Origin: Candidatus Vecturithrix granuli
Lineage (GTDB): Bacteria > Moduliflexota > Moduliflexia > Moduliflexales > Moduliflexaceae
Length of the DNA stretch: 64,000 nucleotides
Direction of reading: 5' to 3'
Assembly: GCA_000739535.1 (NCBI GenBank)
Contig: DF820465.1
Span: 300,797-364,796, forward strand
In this document: one piece after another, positions 50,805 to 55,847 of the stretch
Numbering within the stretch: position 1 is the stretch's first letter
How the letters are laid out: the number at the start of each line of letters is the position of its first letter
The notes under the pieces: model-generated
The model's database searches: none
What the model saw: only the letters and a program-made list of their open reading frames with translations
What the model was told of the DNA's origin: nothing
Translations under genes and position numbers: made by a program

Positions 50805-50836
50805 AGCAACCCGGTTTTTCAAAAAACCGGGTTGCT
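50805..50836. terminator. Bidirectional terminator between convergent genes
   Basis: AGCAACCCGGTTTT and its exact complement pair around TCAA. The right arm overlaps the first base of the minus-strand receptor gene's stop codon. It should serve both the M48 gene and the receptor gene. Confidence 0.75.
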
Positions 50837-53553
50837 CATTTGTATCCGTTGTTCTGGTGAACTTGTCTCGTGGGAATATAGATCGTTTTTTCCTGAATCT
50901 CGTCCGCACGAATTTCTTTTGTTATCAATCGGTGAAGCCAGAAAAATGCCTGTCTCCCAATTTCTTCGGGGTGCTGAAAAATGGCTCCGATCAGTTCGCC
51001 TTTGCGAATAGCTTCTTCGGCGAGCGGGGTTTGATCATAGCCAACGGCCAGTAAGCGCATGGAGGGTAAGTTGCCTTTGTGCAGGGCGTGCAGATATTCG
51101 GTCGTCACCGCTTCGTTTGTGAGAAAGATGCCGTGTAATTCAGGGTTTTCTTCGATGGCTGACGCCAGATAATTTTGCACGTCTTCCCTGTTGGTCATGT
51201 CACAATAAATTTCGACGACATCAAAGGGGTATTGTTCCGCTTTTTGGTGAAATCCCAGGGAACGACGGCACATAGATTCAACCGTCCGATCGACAATCAC
51301 GCCGACAATTGAATTTGGCTGAAGATGGTTCATGAATAATTCAGCCGCCCGGCTTCCGCCTTCCCGATTTCCTGATCGAACGGTGATTGTTGCTGGAACG
51401 GTTTCATCGGCTGCGACAAAAGGAATGCCTTGCAAACTTCCTTTTTCAATCAGTTTCTGCGCCACCGCAATATCGGCAGGGCACAAGATAATGCCCTGGA
51501 TGCCCGGCTGTCGTAATAAACAATTCACCTGTTCCACCTGGGTTGTCGCCTCATACAAAGAGTTCGTAGATAGAACGTCATAGCCATTCCGAAGAGCTTC
51601 GGTCCGAACCCCTTCCAACATCGCATCGAAAAACACATCTGGACCGCGTTTGACAAATCCGATCAGCGGCCGATCAGGGTGTTCTGGATAAACAGGAGCA
51701 GAGAGCGTAAACTCTCCCATGGTAAACGCCAGATTTCCTCCAATGCTAAACAATTCAGACGTCAGTTGCGTCGTTTTTTCTGTTCCAAGTGTGGTTCGGT
51801 GTACCAATTTCCGGATGTATTCTACGGCTTCGACAATCTGATGGGACATTGTGACATTCTGGCTCGTTGCTTGGCCGATCTCGCTGGTGAGGAGATTTAA
51901 GTTCTGAACCATTGCCGCAATGCGGGCGCTCCCTTCTGCCTGTTCTGAAGTAATGCCTCGGATTTGGGCAATCGTTTGCATCAGTTGCCACAACACATGG
52001 CTCACTTGTTCTTGTCGTTCGGTCTGCGATATGACGAGATCAAGCATGATCTGGCGAATCTGTTCATGTTCTCGGGATTGATCGGCTGTTGCCTCCGCGA
52101 TGCGTGAGACCATGCCATGGGTGCTATGAATACTTTCCAATAAAGTATCGAGGGTTTTCCCGGCTTGATCAGACAAGGTCACGCCATTGGAGATAGCTTT
52201 GGATGACCGTTGCATCGCTCGCATGGCGTCACGAAACTCCAATTGAATGGTGCGCAGCAACTCTTCGATTTCATTGGCTGAGTCGTGGGTTCTCTCCGCA
52301 AATTTGACAATCTCATCCGCGATGACCGCAAAATCCCGTCCATGTTCGCCGGCATGAGCAGAAATAATGGCGGCATTAATGGCCAGCAGGTTCGTTTGAT
52401 CTGCAATATCACTAATTACTTCTAAAGATTCGCCCATTTCTTCTGATCGATCTCCCAACCGTTTCACGATCTCGAAGAAGTCATTCATGGATTCCTGAAC
52501 ATGCCTGATCCCTTCAATGCTCTGCTGAACCACCTGTTTGCCCTCCATGGCATCTTTTGAAGCTTCCAGAGAAAGAGCCACGCAGGTTCTGGCGTCTTTT
52601 TCAATGGACTTGGTGGCATCATACAGGCGATCAAGAGAAAACGTCGTTTTTTCTGAAGCTAATGAGGAGGGCGTATTTTTTTCGACAATCTCTTTAAGAT
52701 GGGTAATCGTATTGGCAATCTCTTCAACCGAATGGATCGTTTGCTCGATGGAAGAAGAGGTATCATCCAGTAACGATGATTGTCCCTGGAGACGTTTGGC
52801 GGCATTCTGGATATTGATCGCCATCGTGTTAATTGATTGAGAGATTTCATTGATCCGCTTTGCCGCAATTTTGGTGTCCTGTAAGCTTTGATTTGTAATC
52901 GAATTAATTTGCGCGCCAGCCCTGACAATCTGATTGGTATAATGGCGCGCTTTTGACACCAGAGTGTGCAATTCCGCAATCATAATCTGAATCGGCGCCG
53001 GTCCTGTTCCTTCCGAAAGATCATCGGGAGCAGGAGACCTCAAATTGCCGTGCGTTACGTCCGTAATAGCTTGTTGAACATGATGAAGACGGGTAATAAG
53101 GGTATTGACTGCGTTCACGAATTCATCATCTTCCGACCGCAACATCATTGTGATATTTTCGGTAGAATTTTTGATAATGGCTTTGATCACCTCGGTAATT
53201 TCATCATGAAACGCGACATGTTCTTCCAGATGGTCATAAAGCGGTTTCAATTCCTGATACAGTGGTCGTTTGCGCATGGCATGGAGTTTCTTGCCGACCC
53301 GCATCATTTTTGCAGCATCCGTCAGAAAGGCGATTTGTTCGGTGAGACGCTGCGAGAGAGCCAGCGCCACTCCAATGGAACAGGCGACCACGATGCCCAA
53401 CAGGATAAAAATCATCCCATTCGAGAACATGGCATACACCAATTCAGGAGGGTTGTAGGCCCAAACGCAGGCAAAAGTAAATGCTCCTGCAATTGCTACA
53501 GGAAGTAGCATGAAGAGTATCAGAGCAATCGTGATCCGGTTAGGTGACCTCAT
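50836..53553 (-). CDS. Chemoreceptor-like protein with C-terminal periplasmic-binding-protein fold
   Basis: A 905-residue protein. Two membrane helices (8-31, 46-67) are separated by only about 14 residues, so no periplasmic sensor exists. A HAMP-like region and long coiled coil (70-620) contain the MCP signalling tip IADQTNLLAINAAII...AGEHGRDFAVIADEI (383-415), where the usual EAAR reads ISAH. Residues 628-905 form a LacI/ribose-binding-type domain (PLIGFVKRGPDVFFDAMLEG, ADETVPATITV). By topology this domain is cytoplasmic, so it probably senses an internal sugar-like ligand. It lies 9 nt after an FHA-sigma54 activator gene and probably shares its mRNA. Confidence 0.85.
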   Translation of the reverse strand: MRSPNRITIALILFMLLPVAIAGAFTFACVWAYNPPELVYAMFSNGMIFILLGIVVACSIGVALALSQRLTEQIAFLTDAAKMMRVGKKLHAMRKRPLYQELKPLYDHLEEHVAFHDEITEVIKAIIKNSTENITMMLRSEDDEFVNAVNTLITRLHHVQQAITDVTHGNLRSPAPDDLSEGTGPAPIQIMIAELHTLVSKARHYTNQIVRAGAQINSITNQSLQDTKIAAKRINEISQSINTMAINIQNAAKRLQGQSSLLDDTSSSIEQTIHSVEEIANTITHLKEIVEKNTPSSLASEKTTFSLDRLYDATKSIEKDARTCVALSLEASKDAMEGKQVVQQSIEGIRHVQESMNDFFEIVKRLGDRSEEMGESLEVISDIADQTNLLAINAAIISAHAGEHGRDFAVIADEIVKFAERTHDSANEIEELLRTIQLEFRDAMRAMQRSSKAISNGVTLSDQAGKTLDTLLESIHSTHGMVSRIAEATADQSREHEQIRQIMLDLVISQTERQEQVSHVLWQLMQTIAQIRGITSEQAEGSARIAAMVQNLNLLTSEIGQATSQNVTMSHQIVEAVEYIRKLVHRTTLGTEKTTQLTSELFSIGGNLAFTMGEFTLSAPVYPEHPDRPLIGFVKRGPDVFFDAMLEGVRTEALRNGYDVLSTNSLYEATTQVEQVNCLLRQPGIQGIILCPADIAVAQKLIEKGSLQGIPFVAADETVPATITVRSGNREGGSRAAELFMNHLQPNSIVGVIVDRTVESMCRRSLGFHQKAEQYPFDVVEIYCDMTNREDVQNYLASAIEENPELHGIFLTNEAVTTEYLHALHKGNLPSMRLLAVGYDQTPLAEEAIRKGELIGAIFQHPEEIGRQAFFWLHRLITKEIRADEIQEKTIYIPTRQVHQNNGYK

Positions 53554-53562
53554 AGGCGTGAC

Positions 53563-54885
53563 TCACTCAGGATTATAACCATATTTTTTAATGTCTCGGA
53601 GCTTAATGCCGTAGCGATTGGCCTTATTTTGGATGGCTTTTGGCGTGACTCCTAACAATTTTGCGGCTTTTCGCGTATCCCAATTCACTTCTTCGAGGAT
53701 TTTCATGAATTGGGGGCGCGTCGGATTTTTCAGAATAGAGTCGCCCATTGGCTGCCGAATGTCATCAAGGATCAACTCATCTATATCAATCGGAGCATCA
53801 TCGGCTTTATAGAGCAAGGTACGCTTGATCGCACTCTCAAGCTGACGAATATTGCCCGGCCAGGGGTATTGCTTTAAACGTTCCAGCGCTTCAGGAGTGA
53901 TCCTGGGAATAAACCCGAGCTTCATTAAGCCGTATTTTTTGAGGAAGTGCATGGTTAAACGTTCAAGATCATCACCGCGTTCACGCAGAGGAGGCAGGAA
54001 AATCGTAAAAATACTCAACCGTTGGTACAGATCTTCCCGGAACGTCCCTTCTGCTATGTGGCGTTCAATGGGCTGATTTGTTGCGCTAATCACCCGAACA
54101 TCCACCCGAATCTCCTGTCGTCCTCCAATCCGATAAAAGACGCCATCTTGCAGCACACGTAACAAGGCCACCTGGGTTTCCGGCAAGGTATCGCCAATTT
54201 CATCCAGGAACAAGGTGCCGCCATGGGCTTCTTCAAATTTTCCGATCTTGCGAGCATCCGCCCCGGAAAAAGAGCCCTTTTCATGACCAAAGAGTTCGCT
54301 TAAGAGCAGATTTTTTTGAATCGCACCGCTATTGACGGCAATGTACGGTTTATGCGCACGATTGCCAGATACGTGCAGCGCCCGTGCAACCAATTCTTTC
54401 CCGGTGCCAGATTCTCCCCGAATCACTACAGGTTCTTTTTCTTTCGCCACCTTTTGAATCTGGGCATAGACGTTACACATGGCTTCACTCTCACCAAGCA
54501 TGGAGCCAAAGTTCAAATTATCATCCAGATAGCTGTCAACATCATCGACCGCGACAATCTTCGTCCCACCTTCACGTTCCTCTTCCTGAACGATTTTACA
54601 GGTTAACGTGAAGGGCAGAATGGAGATGGTACACTCCTCAGGCAGTTCACGCCGGAGTTTTTTTCCAGGAAGCCGCACATTATTCAAAAATGTCCCGTTT
54701 GTACTCTCATTATCGTAGATGAAAAATCTTCCGGCTTCTTTGATAATAACAGCATGATTTCGGGAAACGCGGGGATCATGAAGGACAATATCGCTATCCT
54801 CAAGTTTCCCAATTTTGATCGCTCGTTTTTCACGGGAGGAATCCCACACAATCTGATTTCCCAAAAACACGATTAATTTTGACAC
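53563..54885 (-). CDS. FHA-domain sigma54-dependent transcriptional activator
   Basis: A 440-residue regulator. An FHA domain (about 20-90; GKLEDSDIVLHDPRVSRNH, NESTNGTFLNN) that binds phosphothreonine replaces the usual receiver domain. The AAA+ domain (about 130-360) has Walker A GESGTGKE and Walker B GTLFLDEIGD. The sigma54-contact loop reads GSFSGA where GAFTGA is canonical. A Fis-type helix-turn-helix ends the protein (TRKAAKLLGVTPKAIQNKANR). Activity should depend on a Ser/Thr kinase elsewhere. Located 9 nt before the receptor-like gene. Confidence 0.9.
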   Translation of the reverse strand: MSKLIVFLGNQIVWDSSREKRAIKIGKLEDSDIVLHDPRVSRNHAVIIKEAGRFFIYDNESTNGTFLNNVRLPGKKLRRELPEECTISILPFTLTCKIVQEEEREGGTKIVAVDDVDSYLDDNLNFGSMLGESEAMCNVYAQIQKVAKEKEPVVIRGESGTGKELVARALHVSGNRAHKPYIAVNSGAIQKNLLLSELFGHEKGSFSGADARKIGKFEEAHGGTLFLDEIGDTLPETQVALLRVLQDGVFYRIGGRQEIRVDVRVISATNQPIERHIAEGTFREDLYQRLSIFTIFLPPLRERGDDLERLTMHFLKKYGLMKLGFIPRITPEALERLKQYPWPGNIRQLESAIKRTLLYKADDAPIDIDELILDDIRQPMGDSILKNPTRPQFMKILEEVNWDTRKAAKLLGVTPKAIQNKANRYGIKLRDIKKYGYNPE

Positions 54886-54908
54886 AATCGTCTATTGGCA
54901 TCGGGCAT

Positions 54909-54980
54909 AAGGCGAAGGGCGAAGGGTAAATTTACCATTTGTCCTTCGCCTTGTGCCTTTTACCCTTCGCCCTTCGCCTT
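54909..54980. repeat. 22-bp perfect inverted repeat of AAGGCGAAGGGCGAAGGG type
   Basis: The arms 54909-54930 and 54959-54980 are exact complements. The arms and spacer are built from short CCTTCGCC-like units. It lies between the DUF89 gene and the FHA activator gene, both on the minus strand, and could terminate the upstream operon. Confidence 0.75.
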
Positions 54981-54998
54981 TTACCCTTTCACAGGTTG

Positions 54999-55847
54999 TC
55001 AAAAGAGGATCACATTATTCCCTTTTTTGACATTCAAACTTCTGGCAATCGGATGACACACGGCTTTCAAGAGAAATGCAATATTTTCCCGACCGCCGAA
55101 CAGAGTCTGGTAATAGCCGATCCCTTTGGCAATGATCAGATCAGAGTTATCCCAGACCTGCATAAACCCTTCGGTCATCACATCCATCGTTAGCCCAATC
55201 GTATCGTGCGTATGGGGAATAATGGCCCCGTATTGGCCCAGGCCGATTTCTTCCACATCATCAACAGTCGCGTCGTTCAATATCGGTGTTTCTTTCGGAG
55301 AGATTACAATCGTTTTTCCCATCTCGGCAATCGCTTCAATTAAGATGGCATCAAGCGCAATTTCACCGCAATTATCTGTCAGATAGAGCACATTTTTGGC
55401 TTCCTGTAATTTGGCCTCAAAGCGTTCAAATTCATCAATAGCAAACCCTTGTTGGAGTCCCTCCGATATGGGTTCGGCGAAATATCCGATCGTCTCTGCA
55501 TGGGTTTCCAGGGGCACCGCGGCCTCAATAGCGTTGGCTAAGACTGCCGCCAATACTTTATCTTTGAGCGTATGGAGGTCAGGTTTCACTTCTTCAGCCA
55601 GTGAACGAAACACAGCGTTCGTTTCTGTTTTCAAATCTTTATACGGGTCAGTACTTGAGGCGCTTTTGACCATTTGATGAATTTCGCTTGCCAGCAATTC
55701 CGGAACAGCCTCATGAAATGAATTTTGGAGTTTATCGATCACCCATTGGATTGTTTCATAACGTTCTTCCCAATCATTAAAGGCATGATCGCAGGCTTCA
55801 CAGGCCTGACGTAGCAAGCATTCTGCACACAAATATGTTGTTTTCAT
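54999..55847 (-). CDS. DUF89 (ARMT1-like) metal-dependent phosphatase family protein
   Basis: A 282-residue protein of the DUF89 family, whose members are metal-dependent phosphatases thought to remove damaged sugar phosphates or related metabolites. Signatures are an N-terminal CAECLLRQ with paired Cys, VLYLTDNCGEIALD (metal-site Asp and Asn), ILNDATVDDVEE and LIIAKGIGYYQTL. Length fits the small archaeal/bacterial subgroup. It overlaps the DUF4177-like gene by an ATGA, so it is translationally coupled and the last gene of the operon that starts with the OmpA-like gene. Confidence 0.8.
   Translation of the reverse strand: MKTTYLCAECLLRQACEACDHAFNDWEERYETIQWVIDKLQNSFHEAVPELLASEIHQMVKSASSTDPYKDLKTETNAVFRSLAEEVKPDLHTLKDKVLAAVLANAIEAAVPLETHAETIGYFAEPISEGLQQGFAIDEFERFEAKLQEAKNVLYLTDNCGEIALDAILIEAIAEMGKTIVISPKETPILNDATVDDVEEIGLGQYGAIIPHTHDTIGLTMDVMTEGFMQVWDNSDLIIAKGIGYYQTLFGGRENIAFLLKAVCHPIARSLNVKKGNNVILF

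Follow-up and report, generated by a model that had tools for sequence, protein, structure and literature searches.

PBPs normally report extracellular sugars to chemoreceptors. The window, a stretch of 64,000 nucleotides of Candidatus Vecturithrix granuli DNA (contig DF820465.1, positions 300,797 to 364,796), holds a gene in which a PBP-type domain is joined to the chemoreceptor itself, behind the MCP signalling region (Table 1), and this raises the question of what such a receptor would sense and on which side of the membrane. Its assembly measures 8.38 Mb (93.8% complete, 10.8% contamination) and has very few close relatives in the genome collection.

Table 1. Features of the receptor locus, in window coordinates.
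Feature	Coordinates	Strand	Description	Basis
Chemoreceptor gene	50836..53553	minus	905 aa, ATG start, TM-TM-MCP-PBP	ORF; Pfam MCPsignal and Peripla_BP_4
TM helix 1	53479..53535	minus	residues 7-25	hydropathy; AF2 helix 4-31
TM helix 2	53356..53412	minus	residues 48-66	hydropathy; AF2 helix 37-85
MCP signalling domain	52051..52572	minus	residues 328-501	PF00015, E 1.9e-39
Altered tip residues	52354..52365	minus	ISAH (397-400) instead of EAAR	alignment of the genome's MCPs
C-terminal type I PBP domain	50857..51672	minus	residues about 628-899	PF13407, RbsB alignments, AF2, Foldseek
FHA-sigma54 activator	53563..54885	minus	9 bp upstream of receptor	Pfam FHA and Sigma54_activat; synteny; 70% identity to second-genus copy
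ARMT1-like damage-control phosphatase	54999..55847	minus	conserved neighbour, same synteny block	PF01937; synteny in L044

The PBP domain is predicted to lie inside the cell

Hydropathy analysis found only two TM segments, separated by a loop of about 14 residues, and the corresponding AF2 helices meet in a turn at residues 32-36. The two methods agree with the earlier note, which had described a membrane hairpin with no room for a periplasmic domain. Basic residues are abundant on the N-terminal side and again after TM helix 2, and the loop has 0; this charge pattern predicts that both ends of the TM pair are cytoplasmic. The MCP hairpin and everything downstream of it, including the PBP, are likewise predicted to be cytoplasmic, and a periplasmic location for the PBP was rejected on topology.

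Pfam assigned MCPsignal (PF00015; 135.7 bits, cut-off 34.6) and Peripla_BP_4 (PF13407; residues 635-879, E 1.4e-24, 87.5 bits, cut-off 35.1), both with E-values well past chance level, and phmmer aligned the receptor with the Thermotoga MCP 2ch7. No HAMP domain scored above the Pfam threshold in the receptor, with sub-threshold traces in relatives. In the full-length AF2 model, the membrane hairpin leads into long helices that run to residue 613, and a short linker joins these to a PBP that is ordered from about residue 630; the model's mean pLDDT is 63.6, with weak values outside the PBP and mostly 75-91 in blocks of the PBP. The earlier claim of a complete PBP C-terminal to the MCP domain and inside the cell is thus borne out by Pfam, the predicted fold and the predicted topology.

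The receptor shares TM anchors and a cytoplasmic MCP signalling hairpin with Tar, Tsr and the Tm MCPs; unlike them, it lacks a periplasmic sensor, carries a sensor-type domain after the hairpin, and has I and H for E and R at the trimer lock. As with RbsB and Trg of E. coli, an RbsB-like PBP with a largely kept pocket would feed a chemoreceptor. However, RbsB is free in the periplasm, where it acts on Trg's periplasmic portion, whereas the PBP here is covalently attached and predicted to be cytoplasmic. In Helicobacter pylori TlpD, the CZB sensor lies inside the cell, C-terminal to the signalling domain (PMC13001251), and the receptor resembles TlpD in having a C-terminal, apparently intracellular sensor. 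TlpD is nonetheless soluble, and its zinc-binding domain is small; the receptor is anchored by a TM hairpin, and its PBP is 270 residues long. Assignment as a CZB-type cytoplasmic chemoreceptor was rejected on the two TM helices and the lack of a CZB match in Pfam.

The PBP resembles RbsB and keeps most of its pocket

Modelled alone with AF2, the C-terminal part reached a mean pLDDT of 83 (mostly 80-96 over the PBP), and its best PDB matches in Foldseek were ribose-binding proteins (1drj, TM-score 0.83 by target). RbsB is the best match in both sequence and structure, at an overall identity of about 20% and an E-value of 4e-28, compared with 7e-15 for the best LacI protein. Peripla_BP_3 fell below its cut-off (23.8 vs 26.5 bits), and Pfam found no HTH_LacI domain in the receptor. 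The former label, "LacI/ribose-binding-type", is better given as RbsB/CUT2-like: the pocket and fold are of this sugar type, the Peripla_BP_3 score is sub-cut-off and RbsB is the better match. On domain content, a LacI/GalR repressor was rejected as an identity, as was an exported ABC-transporter SBP, because the PBP belongs to the same chain as a cytoplasmic MCP domain and the protein has no TM segment beyond the two of the hairpin.

We compared nine RbsB contact positions, which we take to be the ribose-contacting sites of RbsB-ribose structures. Seven of the nine are retained in the receptor (receptor = RbsB: F641=F15, F642=F16, D716=D89, R764=R141, N813=N190, D840=D215 and Q860=Q235); the altered ones are N13, which is D639 in the receptor, and R90, which is E717, and the orthologue L010 has D and G at these two positions. 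An alanine scan of RbsB identified D89, R141 and D215 as critical for ligand binding (PMC5557919), and the equivalents of all three are invariant in 5/5 family members. Set against the roughly 20% identity overall, the pattern is, at the level of sequence, one of selective retention. As seven pocket residues are kept, the three critical ones among them, the PBP probably binds a ligand, and the N13 and R90 changes indicate that this ligand is probably not ribose itself. The nucleotide ligand that had also been suggested drew no specific support. Between the receptor and L010, identity is 56% in the PBP, 49% in MCPsignal and 25-35% in the coiled-coil arms, making the PBP the best-conserved large domain.

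The altered hairpin tip marks a class of MCPs

The receptor has the conserved MCP hairpin tip (TNLLAINAAIISAHAGEHGRDFAVIADE; tip sequence NAAIISAHAGEHGRDF), with I and H at the E and R lock positions. In the trimer of dimers, E385 and R388' link one dimer to another through an ionic lock (PMC8144572), and by homology the I and H positions would correspond to these residues. Among about 64 distinct MCP frames in the genome, 18 have I at position 1 with Q, H or K at position 4, and the other ~46 have E with R, K or G; these tip classes covary without exception, the combinations I+R, E+Q and E+H being absent. Judged from the alignment, the I..Q/H/K tip is a feature of an MCP class that affects the trimer contact. 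The literal reading of ISAH for EAAR was correct, but the tip does not by itself imply the non-standard CheA/CheW partner once drawn from it, a reading rejected after the genome's MCPs had been counted, since 18 of about 64 share the class signature. Candidates for CheA in the genome, judged by size and the presence of a CheW domain, number about ten. Our literature search returned no description of an IIAAQ motif.

The domain order is rare and seems to have arisen more than once

The orthologue L010, from a second genus, is 42% identical to the window receptor, and an FHA-sigma54 gene lies 12 bp upstream of it. Three further members, L016 and L022 in the receptor's genome and L017 in the second genus, bring the family to five. 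L022 and L017, which belong to different genera, each follow araD (L-ribulose-5-phosphate 4-epimerase). L039 (1193-3358), a further protein in the receptor's genome, shares the domain order but has a conventional EAAR tip and another PBP. It comes directly after genes for two sugar ABC permeases and one binding protein, and deoC and an FGGY kinase lie divergently upstream. As the genome holds about 70 Peripla_BP_4 matches, nearness of such fusions to sugar genes is partly expected. None of L016, L017, L022 and L039 has an evident FHA-sigma54 neighbour.

In PBP trees (read for branching order and not for group counts; the LacI label pattern missed several repressors), the five-member family forms a clade (support 100/99 and 100/100). 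The PBP of L039 is nested deep within the exported binding proteins, where L210 is its neighbour (99/90), and is well separated from the family. A common origin of the window family and L039 was rejected because they differ in both MCP class and PBP branch; by this sequence evidence, the TM-TM-MCP-PBP layout arose at least twice independently in the lineage.

A check for other proteins of this order, proposed with the original observation, returned the orthologue, three further relatives and L039, and none in about 650 other genomes (2-15 candidates scored per genome, a sample small relative to known diversity). With a family profile, full-length matches among 385 diverse genomes were limited to two genomes of the receptor's family, every other match stopping before the PBP, and in 195 genomes of one phylum there was no match at E 1e-90. 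The L039 query returned MCP-only matches from the 385 genomes and 77 of another phylum, and the matches listed from a full-length scan were all MCPs (C-terminal PBP in 0 of the best 80 loci). Our literature search gave no description of an MCPsignal/Peripla_BP_4 fusion. The order is thus rare, as had been supposed, and confined to the family members and L039 among the genomes searched.

Two proteins of other composition were also noted. L045:11911-13764 (minus) encodes 617 aa with an N-terminal sugar-type ABC ATPase domain followed by PAS-HisKA-HATPase (a histidine kinase), close to the araD/receptor pair of the second genus. L041:649-4365 (minus) encodes 1238 aa with a P-loop NTPase-like start and Peripla_BP_4 near its N-terminus.

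The receptor and an FHA-sigma54 activator form a conserved pair

The FHA-sigma54 gene and the receptor gene keep the same order in the second genus (gap of 12 bp there and 9 bp here), within a run shared by both genera: OmpA-like, FtsX-MacB-type permease, ARMT1-like phosphatase, FHA-sigma54 and receptor. The linkage to an FHA-sigma54 activator, which the earlier note had called unusual for an MCP, is therefore supported by a pair conserved across two genera with activators 70% identical. No sugar-utilization gene lies alongside the window receptor and no che gene adjoins it. A search of the window for the sigma54 -24/-12 pattern gave two sites, neither near the receptor or activator genes. Where the ARMT1-like gene is separated from the FHA-sigma54 gene (54886-54998), the DNA consists of degenerate AAGGGCGAAGGGTAAAAGG-like repeats and includes an inverted repeat of 16 pairs at 54916-54952.

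Discussion

On sequence and predicted structure, we consider it reasonably probable that the receptor is a membrane-tethered MCP for an intracellular sugar-like ligand, with the cytoplasmic RbsB-like PBP behind the signalling hairpin as its sensor. The sugar-gene settings of L022, L017 and L039 count in its favour; the window locus, whose neighbours include no sugar-utilization gene, counts against. The ligand, a sugar or sugar derivative that has been taken up or is being catabolized in the cell, would bring the two PBP lobes together. The linker (about residues 614-629) would transmit this closure to the C-terminal MCP helix at its membrane-proximal end, and the resulting change in how the dimer's four-helix bundle packs would alter the activity of CheA bound at the tip. 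The output could be motility or gene expression, and coordinated control with the receptor is a candidate role for the FHA-sigma54 activator. FlhA was not found in the receptor's genome or its family member; a motility output would therefore probably be gliding, and flagellar swimming is unlikely in the host.

It is unlikely, in our estimate, that the PBP no longer binds ligand and serves instead as a structural or protein-interaction module, for array spacing or partner docking, while sensing proceeds through the membrane hairpin or another route. Such a role would fit the two differing contact positions of nine (D639 and E717) and a window copy without a flanking sugar gene, but not the invariance of the three critical contacts in 5/5 family members, the standing of the PBP as the best-conserved large domain between orthologues, or the gain of a different PBP at the same place in another MCP lineage. 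The domain may stem from LacI-type proteins or from SBPs. A PBP derived from a LacI repressor, binding a sugar phosphate or other cytoplasmic effector and not free sugar, would suit the cytoplasmic location; a 20-row tree groups the family with LacI-type proteins (89/90), and a 43-row tree places it between the LacI-type proteins and the SBPs. The sub-cut-off Peripla_BP_3 score, the E-values favouring RbsB and the missing HTH domain speak against this reading of origin and ligand together, which we regard as very unlikely.

A further possibility, which we regard as rather improbable, concerns output: the receptor might feed transcription and not motility, working with the FHA-sigma54 activator as Che3 of Myxococcus xanthus works with the NtrC-like CrdA. 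Che3 is a chemosensory system tied to this sigma54-dependent activator and provides a precedent for such control (PMC3510030); two genera share the pair in the same order, with short gaps and similar activators, and the failure to see FlhA also fits. However, the precedent is distant, as CrdA is a phosphorylated response regulator whereas the activator here has FHA where a receiver would be, so that a CheA phosphotransfer route is not apparent. The absence of an adjoining che gene and of an evident FHA-sigma54 neighbour at the other fusions (0/4) also speaks against it.

Returning to the receptor as an intracellular sensor, the occurrence of two independent fusions within a single genome points to a functional layout. 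More tentatively, the lineage may possess a class of chemoreceptors in which sugar PBPs were moved to the cytoplasmic MCP tail, at least twice independently, so that sugars are sensed once past the transporter, with a link to sigma54-dependent transcription in one branch. A PBP in this position would report sugars that have entered the cell or are being metabolized, and its signal would enter the MCP hairpin from the far end. KSB3/Modulibacteria filaments have >60 methyl-accepting proteins and no flagella, and gliding has been reported for them only in gradients of glucose or maltose (PMC4312070). The genome here agrees with this description in its number of MCPs and its lack of FlhA. If the host is among the KSB3 bulking filaments, the PBP receptors would be concrete candidates for part of the gliding in glucose and maltose gradients.
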